Shown: positions 7,783 through 17,921 of the stretch, piece after piece
How the letters are laid out: every line of letters begins with the position of its first letter
How positions within the stretch are numbered: position 1 is the stretch's first letter
DNA from: an uncultured Nitrospiraceae bacterium
GTDB taxonomy: Bacteria; Nitrospirota; Thermodesulfovibrionia; Thermodesulfovibrionales; Dissulfurispiraceae
Assembly (NCBI GenBank): GCA_903822005.1
Contig: CAIJNL010000004.1
Coordinates: 1-54,183, forward strand
DNA: 54,183 bases
Direction of reading: 5' to 3'
Notes under the pieces: generated by a model
The model's input: only the letters and a program-made list of their open reading frames with translations
Databases searched by the model: none
Told to the model about the DNA's origin: nothing
Program-made: the position numbers and the translations under genes

Positions 7783-9801
7783 TCATATATCAGGGAACCG
7801 TTCCGCAATACTCCTGAACTCCTCATGAATCGCAAGGAACGCATCCGCCATGTCAGGGTCCAGATATTTCCCGCGGTATTCAGCAATGATGGCTACGGCC
7901 TGTTCGTGGGTAAGAGCAGACTTATAAACCCTCCGCGAAATCAGGGCGTCATAAACATCAGCAACGGCCATTAACCTGCCTGGAAAGGGAATGTTGTCGC
8001 CGGAAAGGCCATAAGGGTATCCTTTGCCGTCCCAGTGCTCATGGTGGGATATCGCCATGGCCTTTGCCGTACTGAGAAACGAGGTGTCGAGTCCCTTGCC
8101 GTAAAGCTGCTCCGCGCGCTCAATCGCCTGATAGCCATAGACAGCATGTTTTTTAATCTCGTCATATTCCTCTTCCGTGAGTTTGTGCGGGTTATGCAGA
8201 AGGCTGTCGGGCACGCCGATTTTGCCGATATCATGGAGCGGCGCCGATTTGCTTAACTGCTCGATTTTGGCAGCATCAAGACGGGACGAAAATTTATGAT
8301 TGGAAGAGAGTTTCCGGCAAAGCGACTTGATGTAATTCTGGCAGCGCATCGTATGGTTGCCAGTCTCCCTGTCGCGGGTCTCGATAAGCGATGACAGGCA
8401 CAGGATTGTGAAATCCTGCGTAAGCATAGTCTGTTTGATGCTTTCCCTGATCTCATGCTCTTTGATCCAGTATTTGAACAACATCAGCAGCGACAATATG
8501 CTTGCCATGGCAAGCAGCGGAATAAACGGGGAAACAAAGAATCCGTTGATTGTGAACATCCATTCAGCCCCAAGGCCGATGCAGACAGACAGGACGGCCA
8601 AGACAATGAAACTGCGCCACGCGCCTGACCCTGCAATGAGAAAAGTAAAGATGGTCCCGATCAGCAGCGTAAGGCCTGCCTCAAGCCCACGCATCCAGCC
8701 GGGACGTGAAAGGTAGTCCCGTCTTATGATATTGTCTAACAGCGCTGCATGCACTTCAGTCCCCGGCGTAAGCGCGCCATGGGGCAGCGTGTACAGATCA
8801 CCCAGGCCGCCGGCATTGACCCCGAGAATAACGATTTTGTCTTTCAATTGCTCCATGCCGGTTTTGCCTTCCAATACGTCGGCCGCCGGGATGATGGTGA
8901 AAGAATTATTTTTGGGGAACTTTATGAGCAGATTGCCCTGGGGATCAACCGGAATGGATGCGTCGTCGAGAATCACAGATTCAAGGCCGTAATCCGACAT
9001 TCTTAAGGTCAGATTATCCATTTTCCCGGCGGTCATTATCGCGGCAAGGACCAGGCTCGGGTAATATCCGCCTTTGTATTCAGTCACAAGCGGCACCCTT
9101 CTCAGAATTCCGTCATTGTCGGGCTTGGCATTAATAAATCCGGAGCCGGCGGCCTTTTCGGCCAGTTTGGGCAGGCTGCAGATAATGCCCGAGGCCTCAT
9201 AAAGTTTCCGCAAACTGCTGTCTTCGCCCTCAGACTGCCTGATGATAGATGTCCCGACCGGGCGCGGGTTACAACCCGGGCCAATCTGTTTATTGCCGGT
9301 AAAAGTAAATTTGTAACCAAGGACAAAAGGGCCTTTTGACAAGGTCTTTGCCAGTATCCTGTCGTTGTCCAGGATATGAACAGGCACATCACCCAGTTTG
9401 ATTTCCACATTCAGGTCCCGCTTCAGGTCCCTTTGAAGCACAATCGGCGATGTCCTGTCCTGCTCGGCAAAAAATACATCTATCAATATGCTTGAAGGGC
9501 CCGCATCCCTTATCTTTTCGAGCAGCCGGGCAATGCGGTAGCGGGGCCAGGGCCACTGGCCGTACCGCGAAAGGCTCTCTTCATCAATATAGACTATGAC
9601 CGGAATCTTAGAGACAGTGGCAGGGATGTTGGCGGTCAGCAATGAGTCGTAAATCTTGTTGTTGATGAGCGACAGAAATTTCGGCTCAATGAGCGAGAGC
9701 ACCGAAAAAAAAAGTGCGATCAAAAAGCCGAACAGATAAATCCAGATGCTGCGCGTTTCAAGGTTTTTAACGAAGGCTTTTAACGTGTGGCGTAAGGTCA
9801 T
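7783..9801 (-). CDS. CHASE2 sensor with HD-GYP phosphodiesterase domain
   Basis: About 672 residues. One N-terminal membrane helix leads into a large extracytoplasmic CHASE2 region (about 45-345), then several membrane helices (about 350-435) and a cytoplasmic HD-GYP domain. The HD pair lies at about 523 in PLHDIGKIG, followed by HHEHWDGKGYPYGL (about 586-599). Intact HD-GYP domains hydrolyse cyclic di-GMP, so this is probably a receptor that lowers c-di-GMP in response to a periplasmic signal. An ATG at 9801 directly follows a TTG at 9804 in frame; the ATG is preferred. It is the third gene of the fecR-like / ompA-like operon. Confidence 0.88.
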   Translation of the reverse strand: MTLRHTLKAFVKNLETRSIWIYLFGFLIALFFSVLSLIEPKFLSLINNKIYDSLLTANIPATVSKIPVIVYIDEESLSRYGQWPWPRYRIARLLEKIRDAGPSSILIDVFFAEQDRTSPIVLQRDLKRDLNVEIKLGDVPVHILDNDRILAKTLSKGPFVLGYKFTFTGNKQIGPGCNPRPVGTSIIRQSEGEDSSLRKLYEASGIICSLPKLAEKAAGSGFINAKPDNDGILRRVPLVTEYKGGYYPSLVLAAIMTAGKMDNLTLRMSDYGLESVILDDASIPVDPQGNLLIKFPKNNSFTIIPAADVLEGKTGMEQLKDKIVILGVNAGGLGDLYTLPHGALTPGTEVHAALLDNIIRRDYLSRPGWMRGLEAGLTLLIGTIFTFLIAGSGAWRSFIVLAVLSVCIGLGAEWMFTINGFFVSPFIPLLAMASILSLLMLFKYWIKEHEIRESIKQTMLTQDFTILCLSSLIETRDRETGNHTMRCQNYIKSLCRKLSSNHKFSSRLDAAKIEQLSKSAPLHDIGKIGVPDSLLHNPHKLTEEEYDEIKKHAVYGYQAIERAEQLYGKGLDTSFLSTAKAMAISHHEHWDGKGYPYGLSGDNIPFPGRLMAVADVYDALISRRVYKSALTHEQAVAIIAEYRGKYLDPDMADAFLAIHEEFRSIAERFPDI

Positions 9802-11182: not shown

Positions 11183-12496
11183 TCACACATCGACGTCCAG
11201 CATTGGCAGCCCGAGCCTTTGCCTTTTGTTTTCGCCTTTGAATAGTTCCTGTTTGCGCTGCGGTGTATCGCCGCGTTCTCCCTCATGCTGCGACTGTGTA
11301 TTTGTCTGCAGGCTTGCCGCATGCTGCACAGTGTACTTGCCAAATTTTTCTGATAGCATGTCAACAGCGTCATAAACCTTTGACATTTTCTCTATCTTTG
11401 CGGTGTCGTCAAAGAACGTGTATTGAACCTTTGTCTCGGCTACAAGTCCGGCAAGCACCACGCCCGTCTGGCGGTATAAGGTATTCGGGCGGTAAATATT
11501 CTCGAAGCCCTCCCGCAGGGGACCGAAGAGGTCCGATGGATGGGCGCTTGGGCAGGTGAGTTTCAGTTCAGCCCCGCTGTCAGCAAAATCCTGCCGCCGC
11601 AGGAAAATGACAAGCCTTGTTGCTGCGAGCCCGTAGCGACGTGCCTTGATGCAGGCGTTTTCAAGGTTCCTCGAGAGCTGGGCAAAGACAAAGGACTCTT
11701 CTTTTGATGGAGGAGTGAAGGTCTTGGCCTTGCTTATGGACTGATAGCTGCTCTTTGACTCTTTTATAACAGGATAAATGCTCCTGCCGTTCAGTTCATG
11801 CCAGATCTCGATGTAGGGTTTCGAAAGGTGCTTTGTGACAAACGCCTCGTTCTTCTGAGCAAAGTCGAGGGCCGTGGTTATGCCGAACTTGCGCAGAAAG
11901 GCCGCTGTATTAGGGCCGATGCCCCATACGCTCCCAATTTCCAGGTCTCCGAGATAGCGATGGATCTCTCTGCCGGGTATCATTGTGATGCCGCGCGGTT
12001 TCCTGTGCTTTGAGCCGATCTTCGCGAGTACCTTTGAGAGGCTCACCCCTATGGACACTGTAATGCCTAGCTCTTTCTCGACCGTATCCTGCATCTGCTG
12101 TGCAATCAGGTCGTAAGAGCCGTGGAAGTGTCTTCGAAGGCCGGTAAGGTCCGCAAACGCCTCATCTATTGAGTACTCCTCGACATCGGGCGTAAAGCGC
12201 CTGATGATGCTGAACATGCGCAGGGAGAAGAGGCTGTAGGTTTCGTAGTCGGACGGCAGGATGACAGCATCGGGGCATATCTTCTTTACATCAGAAAGCC
12301 TGACCCCGCGCTTTATGCCCATAGCCTTGGCTTCATAACTGGCCGCGGCCACTATGCCGCGCTCTTTGCCGGTGATCACAGGGCGGCCTTTCAATTCAGG
12401 ATGGATTGCCTGCTCGCAGGATGCAAAAAAGGCGTCGGCGTCCAGATGCAGAATTGCCCGCGGCCATGAGTGGATGGTTATGGGGTCAGAGTTCAT
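11183..12496 (-). CDS. dinB: Y-family translesion DNA polymerase (DinB-like)
   Basis: A 437-residue error-prone polymerase. The catalytic motifs are present: ILHLDADAFFASCEQ near the N-terminus, the Y-family motif SYEAKAMGIKRGV, and EYSIDEAFADLTG, which supplies the second metal-binding acidic pair. Little-finger-domain sequence follows. The C-terminal tail (about 60 residues past LVAETKVQYTFFDD) is charged and may include a clamp-binding end. No Shine-Dalgarno site is visible before the ATG. It lies downstream of lexA in the same direction with a two-gene cassette between them; no LexA box is seen directly upstream of dinB itself. Confidence 0.88.
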   Translation of the reverse strand: MNSDPITIHSWPRAILHLDADAFFASCEQAIHPELKGRPVITGKERGIVAAASYEAKAMGIKRGVRLSDVKKICPDAVILPSDYETYSLFSLRMFSIIRRFTPDVEEYSIDEAFADLTGLRRHFHGSYDLIAQQMQDTVEKELGITVSIGVSLSKVLAKIGSKHRKPRGITMIPGREIHRYLGDLEIGSVWGIGPNTAAFLRKFGITTALDFAQKNEAFVTKHLSKPYIEIWHELNGRSIYPVIKESKSSYQSISKAKTFTPPSKEESFVFAQLSRNLENACIKARRYGLAATRLVIFLRRQDFADSGAELKLTCPSAHPSDLFGPLREGFENIYRPNTLYRQTGVVLAGLVAETKVQYTFFDDTAKIEKMSKVYDAVDMLSEKFGKYTVQHAASLQTNTQSQHEGERGDTPQRKQELFKGENKRQRLGLPMLDVDV

Positions 12497-12546
12497 AAAA
12501 TTAATAGATTGTCTGATTGTAAAATTAGGATGCTAATGTGACCAGA

Positions 12547-13314
12547 TCAGGCGCTTTCAAGTTCTTGGTTAAAATAATGGTGTCCGACAGGCGTCGCATC
12601 CCACGTTCTACCGTCGAGCAAGCGACCATTGTGCTTTTTGGCCCGTTTTTTTCCATCAGCCCCCCAGCCGCCCCACTGTTTGAAAAAGAAGGCAACATTT
12701 TGTTGCTCACATTGAAGTTTTATGTTTAACGCCCATTCCCGTTTCATCGGCCTGGCATTGGGGCCGGACTCTCCGCCTACGATAACCCAGTGAATCCCAT
12801 CCAGATTAATCTTGCCCAAATCCTCCAGCAGAGGTTCCACAGAAATAAAGCGAATAAACGCCGGGACTTGACGAAGCCAATCAAGACGTTGAATGCCGTG
12901 CTTTTTGTCTTCAACGGTCACTCCCATCCATGCATTACGAGGAGGCTGATAGTGTTTAAAAAAATCTGCCATCCGTTCGGCCCTTTTTGTGAGCACCTGA
13001 AAGGTATGCTGCGGTGCCTGCCGGATTACATCAAAAACTTGGCGGATGTAATCGTCAGGGATATTCTCGTGAAATAAATCGCTCATGGAATTAACAAAGT
13101 AAACAGTCGGCTTTGTTCTATTTAGCGGCTCTTCAAGTCGATAAGGCAGTAAGGTAAGCTCGAATCCCTTTTCATAGCCCTTAACTCCCATTGCTTTAAG
13201 CCTTCGCGCCATAACTTCTGCATAGCAATGCGCGCATCCCGCCGAAACCTTACTGCATCCCACTGCCGGGTTCCATGTTTGTTCGGTCCATTCTATAGAT
13301 GTTTGTGTGCTCAT
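12547..13314 (-). CDS. DUF5131 family (phage Gp37/Gp68-like) three-cysteine protein
   Basis: A 255-residue protein beginning SIEWTEQTWNPAVGC. It has three clustered cysteines C20, C27 and C30 (C-x6-C-x2-C followed by YAE), which resemble a radical-SAM cluster-binding motif with altered spacing. Later motifs VYFVNSMSDLFHE, FQVLTKRAERM and WVIVGGESGPNARP are typical of the phage Gp37/Gp68 (DUF5131) family. Members regularly occur beside TcmP, as here: the start overlaps the tcmP stop by ATGA, so translation is probably coupled. Its reaction is unknown. A radical-SAM-like nucleic-acid or nucleotide modification is inference. The pair lies inside the lexA-dinB block. Confidence 0.83.
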   Translation of the reverse strand: MSTQTSIEWTEQTWNPAVGCSKVSAGCAHCYAEVMARRLKAMGVKGYEKGFELTLLPYRLEEPLNRTKPTVYFVNSMSDLFHENIPDDYIRQVFDVIRQAPQHTFQVLTKRAERMADFFKHYQPPRNAWMGVTVEDKKHGIQRLDWLRQVPAFIRFISVEPLLEDLGKINLDGIHWVIVGGESGPNARPMKREWALNIKLQCEQQNVAFFFKQWGGWGADGKKRAKKHNGRLLDGRTWDATPVGHHYFNQELESA

Positions 13315-14489
13315 AGATTTATTTTTATTAACCTTTCACTTTTTTCAAAGTTAACTGCATTAACAGGTCGAGCCCTTTTGGCATCAAGATTCTTTACCTT
13401 ATCATCTTTTTCAAGCTCTTTGAAAGCCTGTTGAAAATCACTTATAAACCAGCCGGTCTCTTCCAGCATATCGGACAATTTTTCTATATCAAATACTGCC
13501 GGTTTGCTTGTTAATTTGTTTAACCAATATCGCTTAACTATGAACAGATCAACATGTCCATCTTTTTCAGGTGCATGATTGTATGCGGTAAAAAGCTCTT
13601 CTTGGCCGCTTTTAGAAATTCGTTTATCCTGCTTTGCCTGTGAGCGGGCCTTCCACTGTACTATATCAAGGCCTTGCGATGCTTCCATAAATTTTACAAT
13701 TCCAAGAGGATGGCGAGTCAGATAAACGAGGTGATAAAGCACGCGATCTTTTGTTGGTTTTAATATCCTTACATATGCAGTTCGTGGAATGCCATCAGTG
13801 GAAGAAACGATTTTCTTTAAATTAATTCTGTAAAGATTAATAAGATGCTCTTCTTTTTCCAGCGCAGTCATGTCATTTGTAATGGGAGTTTGACCAAAAA
13901 CTTCGATCATGTCACCTGTAAATGGTTTCTGGGTATGAGTGCGCAGCAGAAAATCATACATGAAATTTATAAGGAATTCAGAATTGGAACGCTGCAAAAG
14001 AGGCTTGAGAGTAGATGGTTCGACAGCTTCTTTCCAGCCAGTCGGGTCTATAAAGAAAAATGCAAAACTATCTTTGCCGCACCAGTCAAGAATTTGTTGT
14101 CTTAAAGCAATAAACTCTCCGTGCATTGGTTTTACTTCGATCCCTTGTAAATTAATGTCTGTAAGAAAAGATTCCAATTTTTGATATGCTTTTTGATTCT
14201 CCTCAATAAACAGGGCCTTGAATTTGACATTTTTGCCAAGCTGCTTTAACCCTTTTTGGCATTTTTCAATGATCTTTAGAGCAATGACAATTGATGTGTC
14301 CTCAAGGTTCTCGCTTTTTTCCTGCCAAGGTCCTGCAAAACAGTCGACATAACAAATAGTATTGTGATACCGGCCAACAATCATAAACAGACGCTCAAGA
14401 TAGGCTTTGAGTAGGCTGTGTTTGATATATGCTTGTTCTCGTCCCTTATAATGTGCAGGCAGCTTTACGCTTTCGGCATTAACCATCAT
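13311..14489 (-). CDS. tcmP: Three-Cys-motif partner protein TcmP
   Basis: A 392-residue protein of the TcmP family, named for co-occurrence with the DUF5131 three-cysteine protein. Three motifs look like a Rossmann methyltransferase: CYVDCFAGPW (46-55, motif I-like), ALFIEENQKAYQKLE (motif II-like acidic residue) and FAFFFIDPTGW (142-152, motif IV-like DP). A charged, helical C-terminal half with a possible winged-helix segment follows. AGAGGC precedes the ATG. The gene is visibly richer in A and T than lexA and dinB on either side, which suggests acquisition. The methyltransferase activity is inferred; no function is established to my knowledge. Confidence 0.85.
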   Translation of the reverse strand: MMVNAESVKLPAHYKGREQAYIKHSLLKAYLERLFMIVGRYHNTICYVDCFAGPWQEKSENLEDTSIVIALKIIEKCQKGLKQLGKNVKFKALFIEENQKAYQKLESFLTDINLQGIEVKPMHGEFIALRQQILDWCGKDSFAFFFIDPTGWKEAVEPSTLKPLLQRSNSEFLINFMYDFLLRTHTQKPFTGDMIEVFGQTPITNDMTALEKEEHLINLYRINLKKIVSSTDGIPRTAYVRILKPTKDRVLYHLVYLTRHPLGIVKFMEASQGLDIVQWKARSQAKQDKRISKSGQEELFTAYNHAPEKDGHVDLFIVKRYWLNKLTSKPAVFDIEKLSDMLEETGWFISDFQQAFKELEKDDKVKNLDAKRARPVNAVNFEKSERLIKINL

Positions 14490-14504
14490 TTGCCTCTGAT
14501 GAGA

Positions 14505-14542
14505 ATTATATTGGCTGCAACGTTAATAAGTTCTCCATTATA
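14505..14542 (-). promoter_or_regulatory. Possible promoter elements of tcmP-DUF5131
   Basis: Two perfect TATAAT hexamers on the minus strand (14542-14537 and 14510-14505) lie between lexA and tcmP, without convincing -35 boxes. They suggest that the cassette may be transcribed on its own as well as from lexA. Confidence 0.35.
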
Positions 14543-14590
14543 CCTTAAAATGACACTCATATGCGTAAAATAGCATTAGCGAAATGTTTT

Positions 14591-15184
14591 CTATTTATAC
14601 TTCCTTACCACCGCCGTCACTATGCCCGCAATCTTCAATTCATTCTTCGGTTTGATAGGGCTATATTTCGGGTTAGCTGCGACAAGAGTTATGCTTTCGC
14701 CCCGTTTACGCAGGTATTTCATAGTCCATTGTCCGTCCACCTCGGCAATAACTATATCTCCGCTTTTGGCTGTCTGGCCCCTGTCGACGATCACCATATC
14801 GCCCGGCAGTATGCCGGCCTCGGACATCGAATCCCCCGAAACTCTCAGCATGAAGGTTGCGTCAGGGTTATCTATCAGCAGATCGTCGAGTGAAAGGGTG
14901 TCGGCCAGCTCCTCTTCAGCCGGGCTGGGGAAACCGGCCTCTACAGCGCCGAGTATCCTGAGCGGTGCCGTGAGTGCCCTTGGGATCAGCCTGCCCTTGT
15001 CATCCCGTGCTATTATGCGCTGCTGTTCGAGCCTGTCAACGAGTTTAGAGACCGCGTTCTTTGAGCGCAGGCCAGTAATTTCACCAATCTCGGAAAAGCT
15101 TGGCATTCTTCCCTTTTGATGATAAAAGAGAGAGATCTCCCTTATTCTCGACTTTAGTCTGTCTTCATTCATATCTTCGGGCAT
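14591..15184 (-). CDS. lexA: LexA SOS repressor
   Basis: A 197-residue repressor-protease. An N-terminal winged helix (about 10-65) is followed by the self-cleavage site A83-G84 in VEAGFPSPAEEE, the nucleophile S119 in VSGDSMSEAG and the general-base lysine K156 in WTMKYLRKRG. All catalytic residues are present. DNA damage would trigger RecA-stimulated cleavage. The ATG at 15184 lies about 7 bases after the -10 box, so the mRNA may be leaderless. An internal ATG at 15172 (Met5) is the alternative start and has no good ribosome site. A LexA-type box fills its own promoter spacer. Confidence 0.93.
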   Translation of the reverse strand: MPEDMNEDRLKSRIREISLFYHQKGRMPSFSEIGEITGLRSKNAVSKLVDRLEQQRIIARDDKGRLIPRALTAPLRILGAVEAGFPSPAEEELADTLSLDDLLIDNPDATFMLRVSGDSMSEAGILPGDMVIVDRGQTAKSGDIVIAEVDGQWTMKYLRKRGESITLVAANPKYSPIKPKNELKIAGIVTAVVRKYK

Positions 15185-15190
15185 GAGTAT

Positions 15191-15219
15191 AGTATAGGTG
15201 AACTATCGTTCACTGTCAA
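15191..15219 (-). promoter_or_regulatory. lexA promoter with embedded LexA operator
   Basis: On the minus strand TTGACA (15219-15214) and TATACT (15196-15191) are 17 bases apart. The spacer is almost entirely the palindrome GTGAAC-GATA-GTTCAC (15213-15198). GAAC-N4-GTTC is the core of Bacillus-type SOS boxes, so bound LexA would block RNA polymerase directly. This is a textbook autoregulation layout. Confidence 0.88.
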
Positions 15220-17277: not shown

Positions 17278-17523
17278 ATGCCTACATCGATGATAACATC
17301 CAAGGGGCAAACCACCATACCAAAAGAGATAAGAGACTACCTCCATATACAGCCCGGAGACAGGGTGGATTTTGTTGTAGCAGAAGATGGAAGGGTTTCA
17401 CTTGAGCCTACAACCTTAGATATTAAAGAACTGGAGGGTGCGTTACACCGGCCAGGCATGAAAGCAGTTTCAGATGTTGAGATAAAGGCTGCCGTGAGAA
17501 AACGGTTTGGGGTGAGAAAATAA
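17278..17523 (+). CDS. AbrB/MazE-type antitoxin
   Basis: An 81-residue protein with an N-terminal swapped-hairpin (SpoVT-AbrB) DNA-binding domain: SMITSKGQTTIPKEIRDYLHIQPGDRVDFVV. A charged C-terminal tail would wrap the toxin. Its stop codon overlaps the toxin start by one base (TAATG), the usual coupling for type II systems. It is expected to neutralise the PIN toxin and, with it, repress the promoter through the palindrome at 17233-17250. AAAGGAA precedes the ATG. Confidence 0.88.
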   Translation: MPTSMITSKGQTTIPKEIRDYLHIQPGDRVDFVVAEDGRVSLEPTTLDIKELEGALHRPGMKAVSDVEIKAAVRKRFGVRK

Positions 17524-17921
17524 TGACGGGACTTGATACCAATGTGCTTGTCCGTTATTTTGTCAAAGATGACCAACAACAGGCTGAGAAGGCATCTGCT
17601 TGTATCAAAAAGATAGTCTCAGGCGGAGGCAACTGTTTTATCAATCTTATGGTTTTTTGCGAGCTGGTATGGGTCCTTGAATCGGCTTATGGATATGGCA
17701 GGCAGGATATTACAAGTTTGCTTGAAAAGATGCTCGCTACCCGGCAATTTGACATAGAGTCAAAAGATATAGTCAGGCAGGCAGTTCATGATTACAGTCG
17801 AGGCAATGCGGATATGGCTGATTATCTGATCGGAAGGGTGAATAATTCACATGGCTGCGACCGCACGGTCACTTTCGATAAAGCCCTCAGAAACTCCGGT
17901 TTCTTTGATGTTCTGTCCTGA
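17523..17921 (+). CDS. PIN-domain ribonuclease toxin (VapC-like)
   Basis: A 132-residue PIN-domain toxin. The acidic metal site appears complete: D5 in GLDTNVLVRYF, E47 in CELVW, D97 or D100 in NADMADYLIG and D119 in TFDKAL. VapC proteins cleave RNA, often tRNA or rRNA; the target here is unknown. It forms a type II pair with the AbrB-type antitoxin just upstream and is followed by a hairpin terminator. A stand-alone chromosomal module in a gap between housekeeping genes suggests past acquisition. Confidence 0.9.
   Translation: MTGLDTNVLVRYFVKDDQQQAEKASACIKKIVSGGGNCFINLMVFCELVWVLESAYGYGRQDITSLLEKMLATRQFDIESKDIVRQAVHDYSRGNADMADYLIGRVNNSHGCDRTVTFDKALRNSGFFDVLS

Follow-up and report, generated by a model that had tools for sequence, protein, structure and literature searches.

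Horizontally acquired tcmP-DUF5131 genes between lexA and dinB in an uncultured Nitrospiraceae bacterium: a candidate SOS-inducible anti-phage module

Introduction

The closest described counterparts of the locus reported here are PDC-M30 and PDC-M41 of PADLOC. PDC systems are putative phage-defence candidates, proposed by 'guilt-by-embedding'; a panel of 100 P. aeruginosa strains included 32 with PDC-M30, of which 68.8% were phage-resistant (PMC10855318). In S. meliloti, a table of co-regulated genes arranged by putative transcriptional unit places a TcmP gene (SMa2243) beside that of the Hna phage-defence helicase (SMa2245; PMC12445080). The window analysed here, a stretch of 54,183 nucleotides from an uncultured Nitrospiraceae bacterium (contig CAIJNL010000004.1 of assembly GCA_903822005.1), contains adjacent tcmP and DUF5131 genes which match the A and B models of these systems: DUF5131 matches PDC-M30B and PDC-M41B at 373 and 366 bits, and TcmP matches the A models weakly, at 53 and 24 bits. 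The PDC entries are candidates, however, and the TcmP of the window is distant from their A models. DUF5131 also matches TIGR04471 (radical SAM mobile pair protein A; 96.6 bits, E 1e-27), although far under the 355-bit cut-off of that model.

A preliminary description of this DNA had put the pair forward as an undescribed system, which in the strict sense it is not, since both genes are already PADLOC candidates. As they are already listed as such, the new part lies in their wiring to LexA and UmuD, and in the slot that they occupy. To our knowledge, placement with lexA and dinB is not part of the definition of PDC-M30 or PDC-M41. The open-licence literature yielded no paper on this arrangement under DUF5131, Gp37/Gp68 or TcmP, with or without SOS or LexA. 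The operon itself resembles SOS-regulated lexA-dinB and umuDC operons in having a LexA-type operator in its promoter and a gene for a Y-family polymerase; it differs in the enzymatic cargo added between repressor and polymerase, which varies among genomes.

Results

Layout of the locus

Four genes run leftward on the minus strand, and both coordinates and HMM matches agree with the order initially described: lexA (14591-15184; TIGR00498, 129 bits, cut-off 111), tcmP (13311-14489, 392 aa; TIGR04474, 115.7 bits, cut-off 53), the DUF5131 gene (12547-13314, 255 aa; PF07505, phage Gp37/Gp68 family, 361 bits, cut-off 28.9) and dinB, which encodes a Y-family polymerase with IMS and IMS_C domains (11183-12496). 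The PF07505 match spans the full model (positions 1-243 of 243). The tcmP stop and DUF5131 start share an ATGA at 13311-13314, as had also been noted; this four-base overlap recurs, from coordinates, in about 20 other loci, and translational coupling of the two genes is likely on the sequence. To the left of the pair, as transcribed, a 101-bp AT-rich spacer separates the lexA stop from the tcmP start (14490-14590), and to the right a 50-bp spacer separates the DUF5131 stop from the dinB start (12497-12546). The lexA gene is the sole LexA-type gene found in the genome (one match), and by eye its product shows an A-G cleavage site together with Ser and Lys regions. Roughly 2 kb from lexA, outside the lexA-dinB interval, a rightward AbrB-type antitoxin gene is followed by a PIN-domain toxin gene (17278-17921; identified by eye from translations).

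The lexA promoter, TTGACA-17-TATACT (15191-15219, minus strand), agrees with the consensus at 11 of 12 positions, and enclosed in its spacer is the LexA-type operator GTGAACTATCGTTCAC (15198-15213), a perfect palindrome (GTGAAC-TATC-GTTCAC) whose position ahead of lexA is shared by relatives. Nine aligned loci show no variation in TTGACAG, GAAC, GTTC and TATA-T upstream of lexA, and almost every locus with the lexA type of the window has a GAACN4GTTC box in front of that gene; genome-wide, TGAACN4GTTCA occurs at four places, and only the one at lexA is clearly in a promoter. Inspection of the 101-bp spacer between lexA and tcmP revealed neither a leftward promoter-like site nor a terminator-like site, and read-through from the LexA-controlled lexA promoter is consequently the simplest model of expression. 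It is likely that this promoter drives the whole operon, and from the promoter anatomy we strongly infer that LexA represses the operon and that DNA damage would induce tcmP and DUF5131 together with dinB. Since the pair lies between two DNA-damage-response genes, it is probably switched on by DNA damage, and the damage-linked expression first proposed for it therefore appears likely.

Composition and codon use

Base composition was compared with that of 111 open reading frames of at least 250 aa from the same genome (mean GC 0.511). That the middle genes are richer in A and T than their neighbours, as the preliminary description held, is strongly borne out for tcmP, which lies 6.0 standard deviations below the mean (GC 0.381, z -6.0; GC3 0.339, z -5.6), and only moderately for DUF5131 (GC 0.480, z -1.4; GC3 0.475, z -2.5). 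By codon index, both genes fall below all 111 background frames, while lexA and dinB are typical of them; the codon use of tcmP and DUF5131 is foreign, not native. The two are also unlike each other in composition, such that one common origin is not required.

A recurrent cargo slot between lexA and dinB

In a same-genus genome (G001), lexA and dinB are separated by 97 bp, and the genome lacks DUF5131; the spacer between lexA and tcmP in the window measures 101 bp, versus 97 bp for this empty site. Across 149 genomes of the order, in which lexA-dinB pairs were counted from coordinate tables, 39 pairs lie on one contig, with a gap of 3-436 bp in 32 and of 2.1-6.4 kb in the remaining seven. An eighth filled slot belongs to G118, whose contig ends after lexA...DUF5131. 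DUF5131 is present in five of these eight filled slots, namely those of the window's genome (G000), G046 (5.5 kb), G111 (6.4 kb), G132 (2.5 kb) and G118, and is missing from those of G034, G104 and G144. The five slot copies are also the five highest-scoring PF07505 matches among the 149 genomes (353-361 bits), and every DUF5131 scoring 335 bits or less lies outside the slot. Two further DUF5131 slots were found in the named loci UBA6898 and UBA6905 (L050, L052). The lexA-dinB junction is thus a recurrent cargo slot, and the insertion of tcmP-DUF5131 suggested by the preliminary description stands: the site is empty in the congener and in 32 of 39 loci of the order, most relatives lacking the pair at this place.

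All recognizable slot cargo is co-directional with lexA and dinB. Beside DUF5131 the slot holds, in G046, an AbrB-PIN pair (by eye) and a type ISP restriction protein; in G111, DUF5615, a BRO-N protein (PDC-S13, 398 bits) and a helicase; in G118, an AbrB-like gene, a truncated TcmP of which only the C-terminal ~145 residues remain, and GmrSD_N; and in G132, a nucleotidyltransferase and a different, short TcmP. The slots without DUF5131 contain an AbrB-like gene and a type IIG restriction-methylation protein (G034), an AbrB-PIN pair (G104, by eye), or a Ser/Thr kinase-TPR protein resembling PD-T4-6/Mad6 with an AbiEii/DUF6036 nucleotidyltransferase, a RelE-like gene and a transposase (G144; the last two by eye). 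AbrB-PIN pairs, like that near lexA in the window, are therefore found within the slot of relatives also. In four related slots (L145 at 7502, L149 at 4172, L050 at 2624 and L052 at 8688), the nucleotidyltransferase cargo gene, or what remains of it, has a further GAACN4GTTC palindrome across its start codon, which could be either an operator or a coding coincidence. The G046 bin contains two lexA-dinB operons (L129, L130), which are mutual nearest relatives; one is empty, with a 28-bp gap, and the other carries the 5.5 kb cargo. The lexA type of the window is itself patchy, with a close copy in only 46 of the 149 genomes. The lexA-dinB operon may therefore serve this group as an accessory module for mutagenesis and not as its core SOS regulator.

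Evolution of the pair and its slot

The slot DUF5131s form a monophyletic group (SH-aLRT 95), nested among deltaproteobacterial DUF5131s, whereas the flanking lexA and dinB genes follow the species. In the LexA and DinB trees the window groups with its empty congener (support 96 and 100, respectively), just as the filled copy of G046 does with its empty copy (81 and 98); on the starred branches of these trees alone, the slot must have changed state at least four times. A single DUF5131 clade amid species-like lexA and dinB implies that the same DUF5131 lineage was gained at, or lost from, the same junction repeatedly. Movement of lexA-tcmP-DUF5131-dinB as a single block was considered and rejected, as these trees pair the window with the empty congener, and the filled G046 operon with its own empty copy.

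In L051 (G132), the 3' end of lexA occurs twice: the second copy, 80% identical, lies just before TcmP and after the nucleotidyltransferase gene (9057-9118), and is likely a scar of slot-to-slot recombination with another locus of this kind. Up to that scar L050 and L051 share 95.6% identity, and only one of the two has TcmP; together with the retention of DUF5131 in slots that lack TcmP, this difference suggests that TcmP is exchangeable or dispensable while DUF5131 stays. TcmP was not found at E 1e-8 in the whole genomes of G046 or G111 (97% and 100% complete). The dN/dS among slot copies of DUF5131 is 0.03-0.11, and 0.074 between G046 and G111; as DUF5131 is under purifying selection in these TcmP-less genomes, a strictly two-component model is incomplete. 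Across 20 loci with an abutting pair, DUF5131 is the more conserved of the two proteins in 99.5% of pairwise comparisons (median 73%, against 55% for TcmP).

Predicted structures of DUF5131 and TcmP

The C-x6-C-x2-C motif first seen in DUF5131 corresponds to C20/C27/C30, and is invariant in an alignment of 42 sequences; the canonical radical-SAM motif, which binds a 4Fe-4S cluster, is, by contrast, C-x3-C-x2-C. The AF2 model (pLDDT 85.7) predicts a radical-SAM barrel, in keeping with the radical-SAM-like assignment made earlier. Its structural alignment is headed by spore photoproduct lyase (Z 13.2 over 188 residues, 2.9 A), followed by viperin (Z 11.9) and RlmN (Z 11.3); the best 27 matches are all radical-SAM enzymes (Z 13.2 to 9.4), and the absence of any family from such match lists, here or for methyltransferases, does not exclude it. 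Foldseek alone gave a best E of 0.015, also to spore photoproduct lyase. With the lyase SplB, its closest solved fold, DUF5131 shares the predicted radical-SAM barrel and a Cys triad placed early in the aligned region; unlike DUF5131, SplB has the canonical spacing, and no sequence-level similarity between the two was found. Viperin, an antiviral radical-SAM enzyme that turns CTP into ddhCTP and has prokaryotic counterparts, represents the second-best fold family; the likeness is by fold alone, as no sequence similarity was found, and DUF5131 differs in having TcmP as a partner gene. Single-sequence and profile comparisons of DUF5131 and TcmP with the PDB gave only chance-level matches, with no radical-SAM hit for the DUF5131 profile.

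The TcmP model (pLDDT 92) is predicted to comprise a class-I methyltransferase fold (residues ~11-287) and a C-terminal winged helix (~315-371), the latter also suggested by PF22560 (GMT-wHTH), which is weak in the window and scores 33-54 bits in relatives. RlmJ, the 23S rRNA A2030 N6-methyltransferase, is the top structural match (Z 15.1 over 208 residues, 3.6 A), ahead of Trm1 and others. The CFAGP, FIEEN and FIDPTG stretches on which the methyltransferase-like reading had been based are present, and correspond to conserved positions of motifs I, II and IV: the aligned TcmPs keep motif I (DxFxGP/G) and an acidic motif II, as does RlmJ, and the RlmJ-like predicted fold upholds that reading. 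Motif IV, however, is DPTG in the window and DP[TK]GW, DQYGY or DPF among aligned TcmPs, never DPPY; the catalytic (D/N/S)PP(Y/F/W) of RlmJ and N6-adenine methyltransferases occurs in none of them. TcmP further differs from RlmJ in its added winged helix, and is only 12-13% identical to it. Given this motif IV, TcmP is probably either a SAM binder that acts on a substrate other than N6-adenine, or a targeting protein.

The pair in other genomes

Beyond the slot, the pair has genes of restriction and other defence systems beside it. In Deltaproteobacteria and allied MAGs, those downstream include type III restriction-modification genes (725 and 720 bits) with a YhcG-type PDC-S02, a type I methyltransferase (891 bits), SIR2 (a weak ThsA match), an MTES_1575 helicase-nuclease, and a UvrD-type helicase with DUF2290 and PDC-M57. 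A non-slot DUF5131 of another member of the Nitrospirota (G071) adjoins a PDC-S73 protein (543 bits). Mobile carriage is also evident: the temperate Gordonia phage Angelique (L171, gp42-gp43) has mutually convergent DUF5131 and TcmP genes between its integrase and immunity repressor; on Pseudomonas-type plasmids the pair adjoins an integrase gene near mer genes, or a Tn3-family transposase; and on a Rhizobium plasmid it lies near an Eco57I-type methylase. These neighbours, together with the slot cargo, lend support to the defence link that was initially proposed.

Among the 80 nearest relatives, which are the nearest loci and not a random sample, 27, in Beta- and Gammaproteobacteria and so independent of Nitrospirota, have an autoproteolytic-type gene, either LexA-like (~212 aa) or UmuD-like (~196 aa), immediately before DUF5131 and in its orientation. 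Two UmuD-like neighbours tested score 128 and 132 bits, over the UmuD cut-off of 110, and two LexA-like neighbours score 83 and 95 bits, below the LexA cut-off of 111. A palindrome stands just upstream of several such genes, for example TGATTTCGTCACGAAATCA (UmuD-like) and TTAATGTACGTTCGTACATTAA (LexA-like). The neighbour kinds fall in separate groups of the DUF5131 tree. In Burkholderiales operons (L085, L087, L092, L098-L100, L102, L110, L111, L117, L119, L122, L125, L127), DUF5131 and one or two TcmPs take the place of umuC behind the UmuD-like gene, several having TGATTTCGTCACGAAATCA, as a perfect palindrome or near copy, just upstream; in L117, UmuD-UmuC-type genes stand beside DUF5131. 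Such neighbours do not characterize the family throughout: no LexA neighbour was found at deltaproteobacterial DUF5131 copies, or at the 19 further loci inspected from a phylum-wide sample. Genes of ~200 aa upstream of TcmP in Deltaproteobacteria and others were considered as LexA and rejected for the three tested, which are TetR, HARE-HTH and YqaJ; likewise, GAACN4GTTC within deltaproteobacterial TcmP genes was rejected as an operator, since by inspection it lies ~25 codons into the gene, in a conserved ERLF stretch, and such occurrences were taken to be coding coincidences.

Discussion

The tcmP-DUF5131 genes are a horizontally acquired two-gene module in a lexA-dinB operon. We give the highest probability, a little under one half (about 0.48), to the reading that they form a mobile, SOS-inducible anti-phage or anti-mobile-element module which modifies nucleic acid. 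DNA damage inflicted by phage infection or by restriction would trip LexA, its RecA-stimulated cleavage would induce the pair along with dinB, and the dose of the module would rise. TcmP, with its RlmJ-like fold and winged helix, may bind the nucleic-acid target as the faster-evolving, exchangeable specificity part, and the conserved DUF5131, of the spore-photoproduct-lyase and viperin type, may perform radical chemistry on a base or nucleotide. We hold this division of labour between target binder and radical catalyst less firmly than the defence function as a whole. Three observations count against SOS-controlled defence by such a pair: selection keeps DUF5131 in G046 and G111, where TcmP was not found; most DUF5131s outside three groups have no LexA or UmuD neighbour; and the nearest fold of the DUF5131 model is that of a DNA-repair enzyme.

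The latter fold, and neighbours that include translesion, LexA and UmuD genes, make a repair or tolerance module the main rival. DUF5131 would then reverse or process a DNA lesion by radical chemistry, in the way of spore photoproduct lyase, and TcmP would recognize the lesion or DNA, both being SOS-induced beside a translesion polymerase and carried by mobile elements in the manner of umuDC/rulAB-type genes. The operon with lexA and dinB, the LexA-like, UmuD-like and UmuD-UmuC-type neighbours in other bacteria, and the retention of DUF5131 without TcmP are all in its favour. We nonetheless consider it rather unlikely: in other loci the genes alongside belong to restriction, SIR2 and further kinds of defence, the slot itself also accepts toxin-antitoxin, kinase and restriction-modification genes, none of them for repair, and no homology to the lyase is detectable by sequence profile. 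Modification of RNA under stress, in which TcmP and the somewhat RlmN-like DUF5131 would alter host or phage rRNA or tRNA as a translation switch or shut-off, is suggested by the rank of RlmJ and Trm1 among the TcmP folds and by that of RlmN among the DUF5131 matches; we regard it as improbable, given that a common fold does not establish a substrate, that TcmP never has the DPPY of N6-adenine enzymes, and that the distribution of the pair is mobile and patchy. Marginally less credible again is a passive slot, at which insertions are merely tolerated and the SOS link has no functional meaning for the cargo. The variety of unrelated cargo in one slot would fit such tolerance, as would the window's AbrB-PIN-like pair, which is close to lexA yet not in the slot; the passive reading sits poorly with the shared direction of every recognizable cargo gene and lexA, with a slot that takes defence and toxin-antitoxin genes in particular, and with the LexA-like or UmuD-like genes that other DUF5131 clades have of their own.

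Returning to the anti-phage reading, a broader and more doubtful proposition, to which we lend only tentative credence, is that DUF5131 represents a new class of radical-SAM enzyme that acts on nucleic acid and is induced by the SOS response. Separate recruitments would have placed it behind LexA, LexA-like and UmuD-like autoproteolytic proteins, interchangeable TcmPs would serve as its targeting subunits, and the lexA-dinB junction would be a general docking site at which defence genes come under the control of damage. Both DUF5131 and TcmP occur widely on plasmids, in phages and on chromosomes, and have hitherto been a computational defence candidate only. Their recurrent siting behind autoproteolytic SOS proteins offers a concrete, testable handle, both for induction by damage and for the nucleic-acid target. 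If the lexA-dinB junction truly docks defence genes, then the SOS response would be tied to phage defence directly and heritably.
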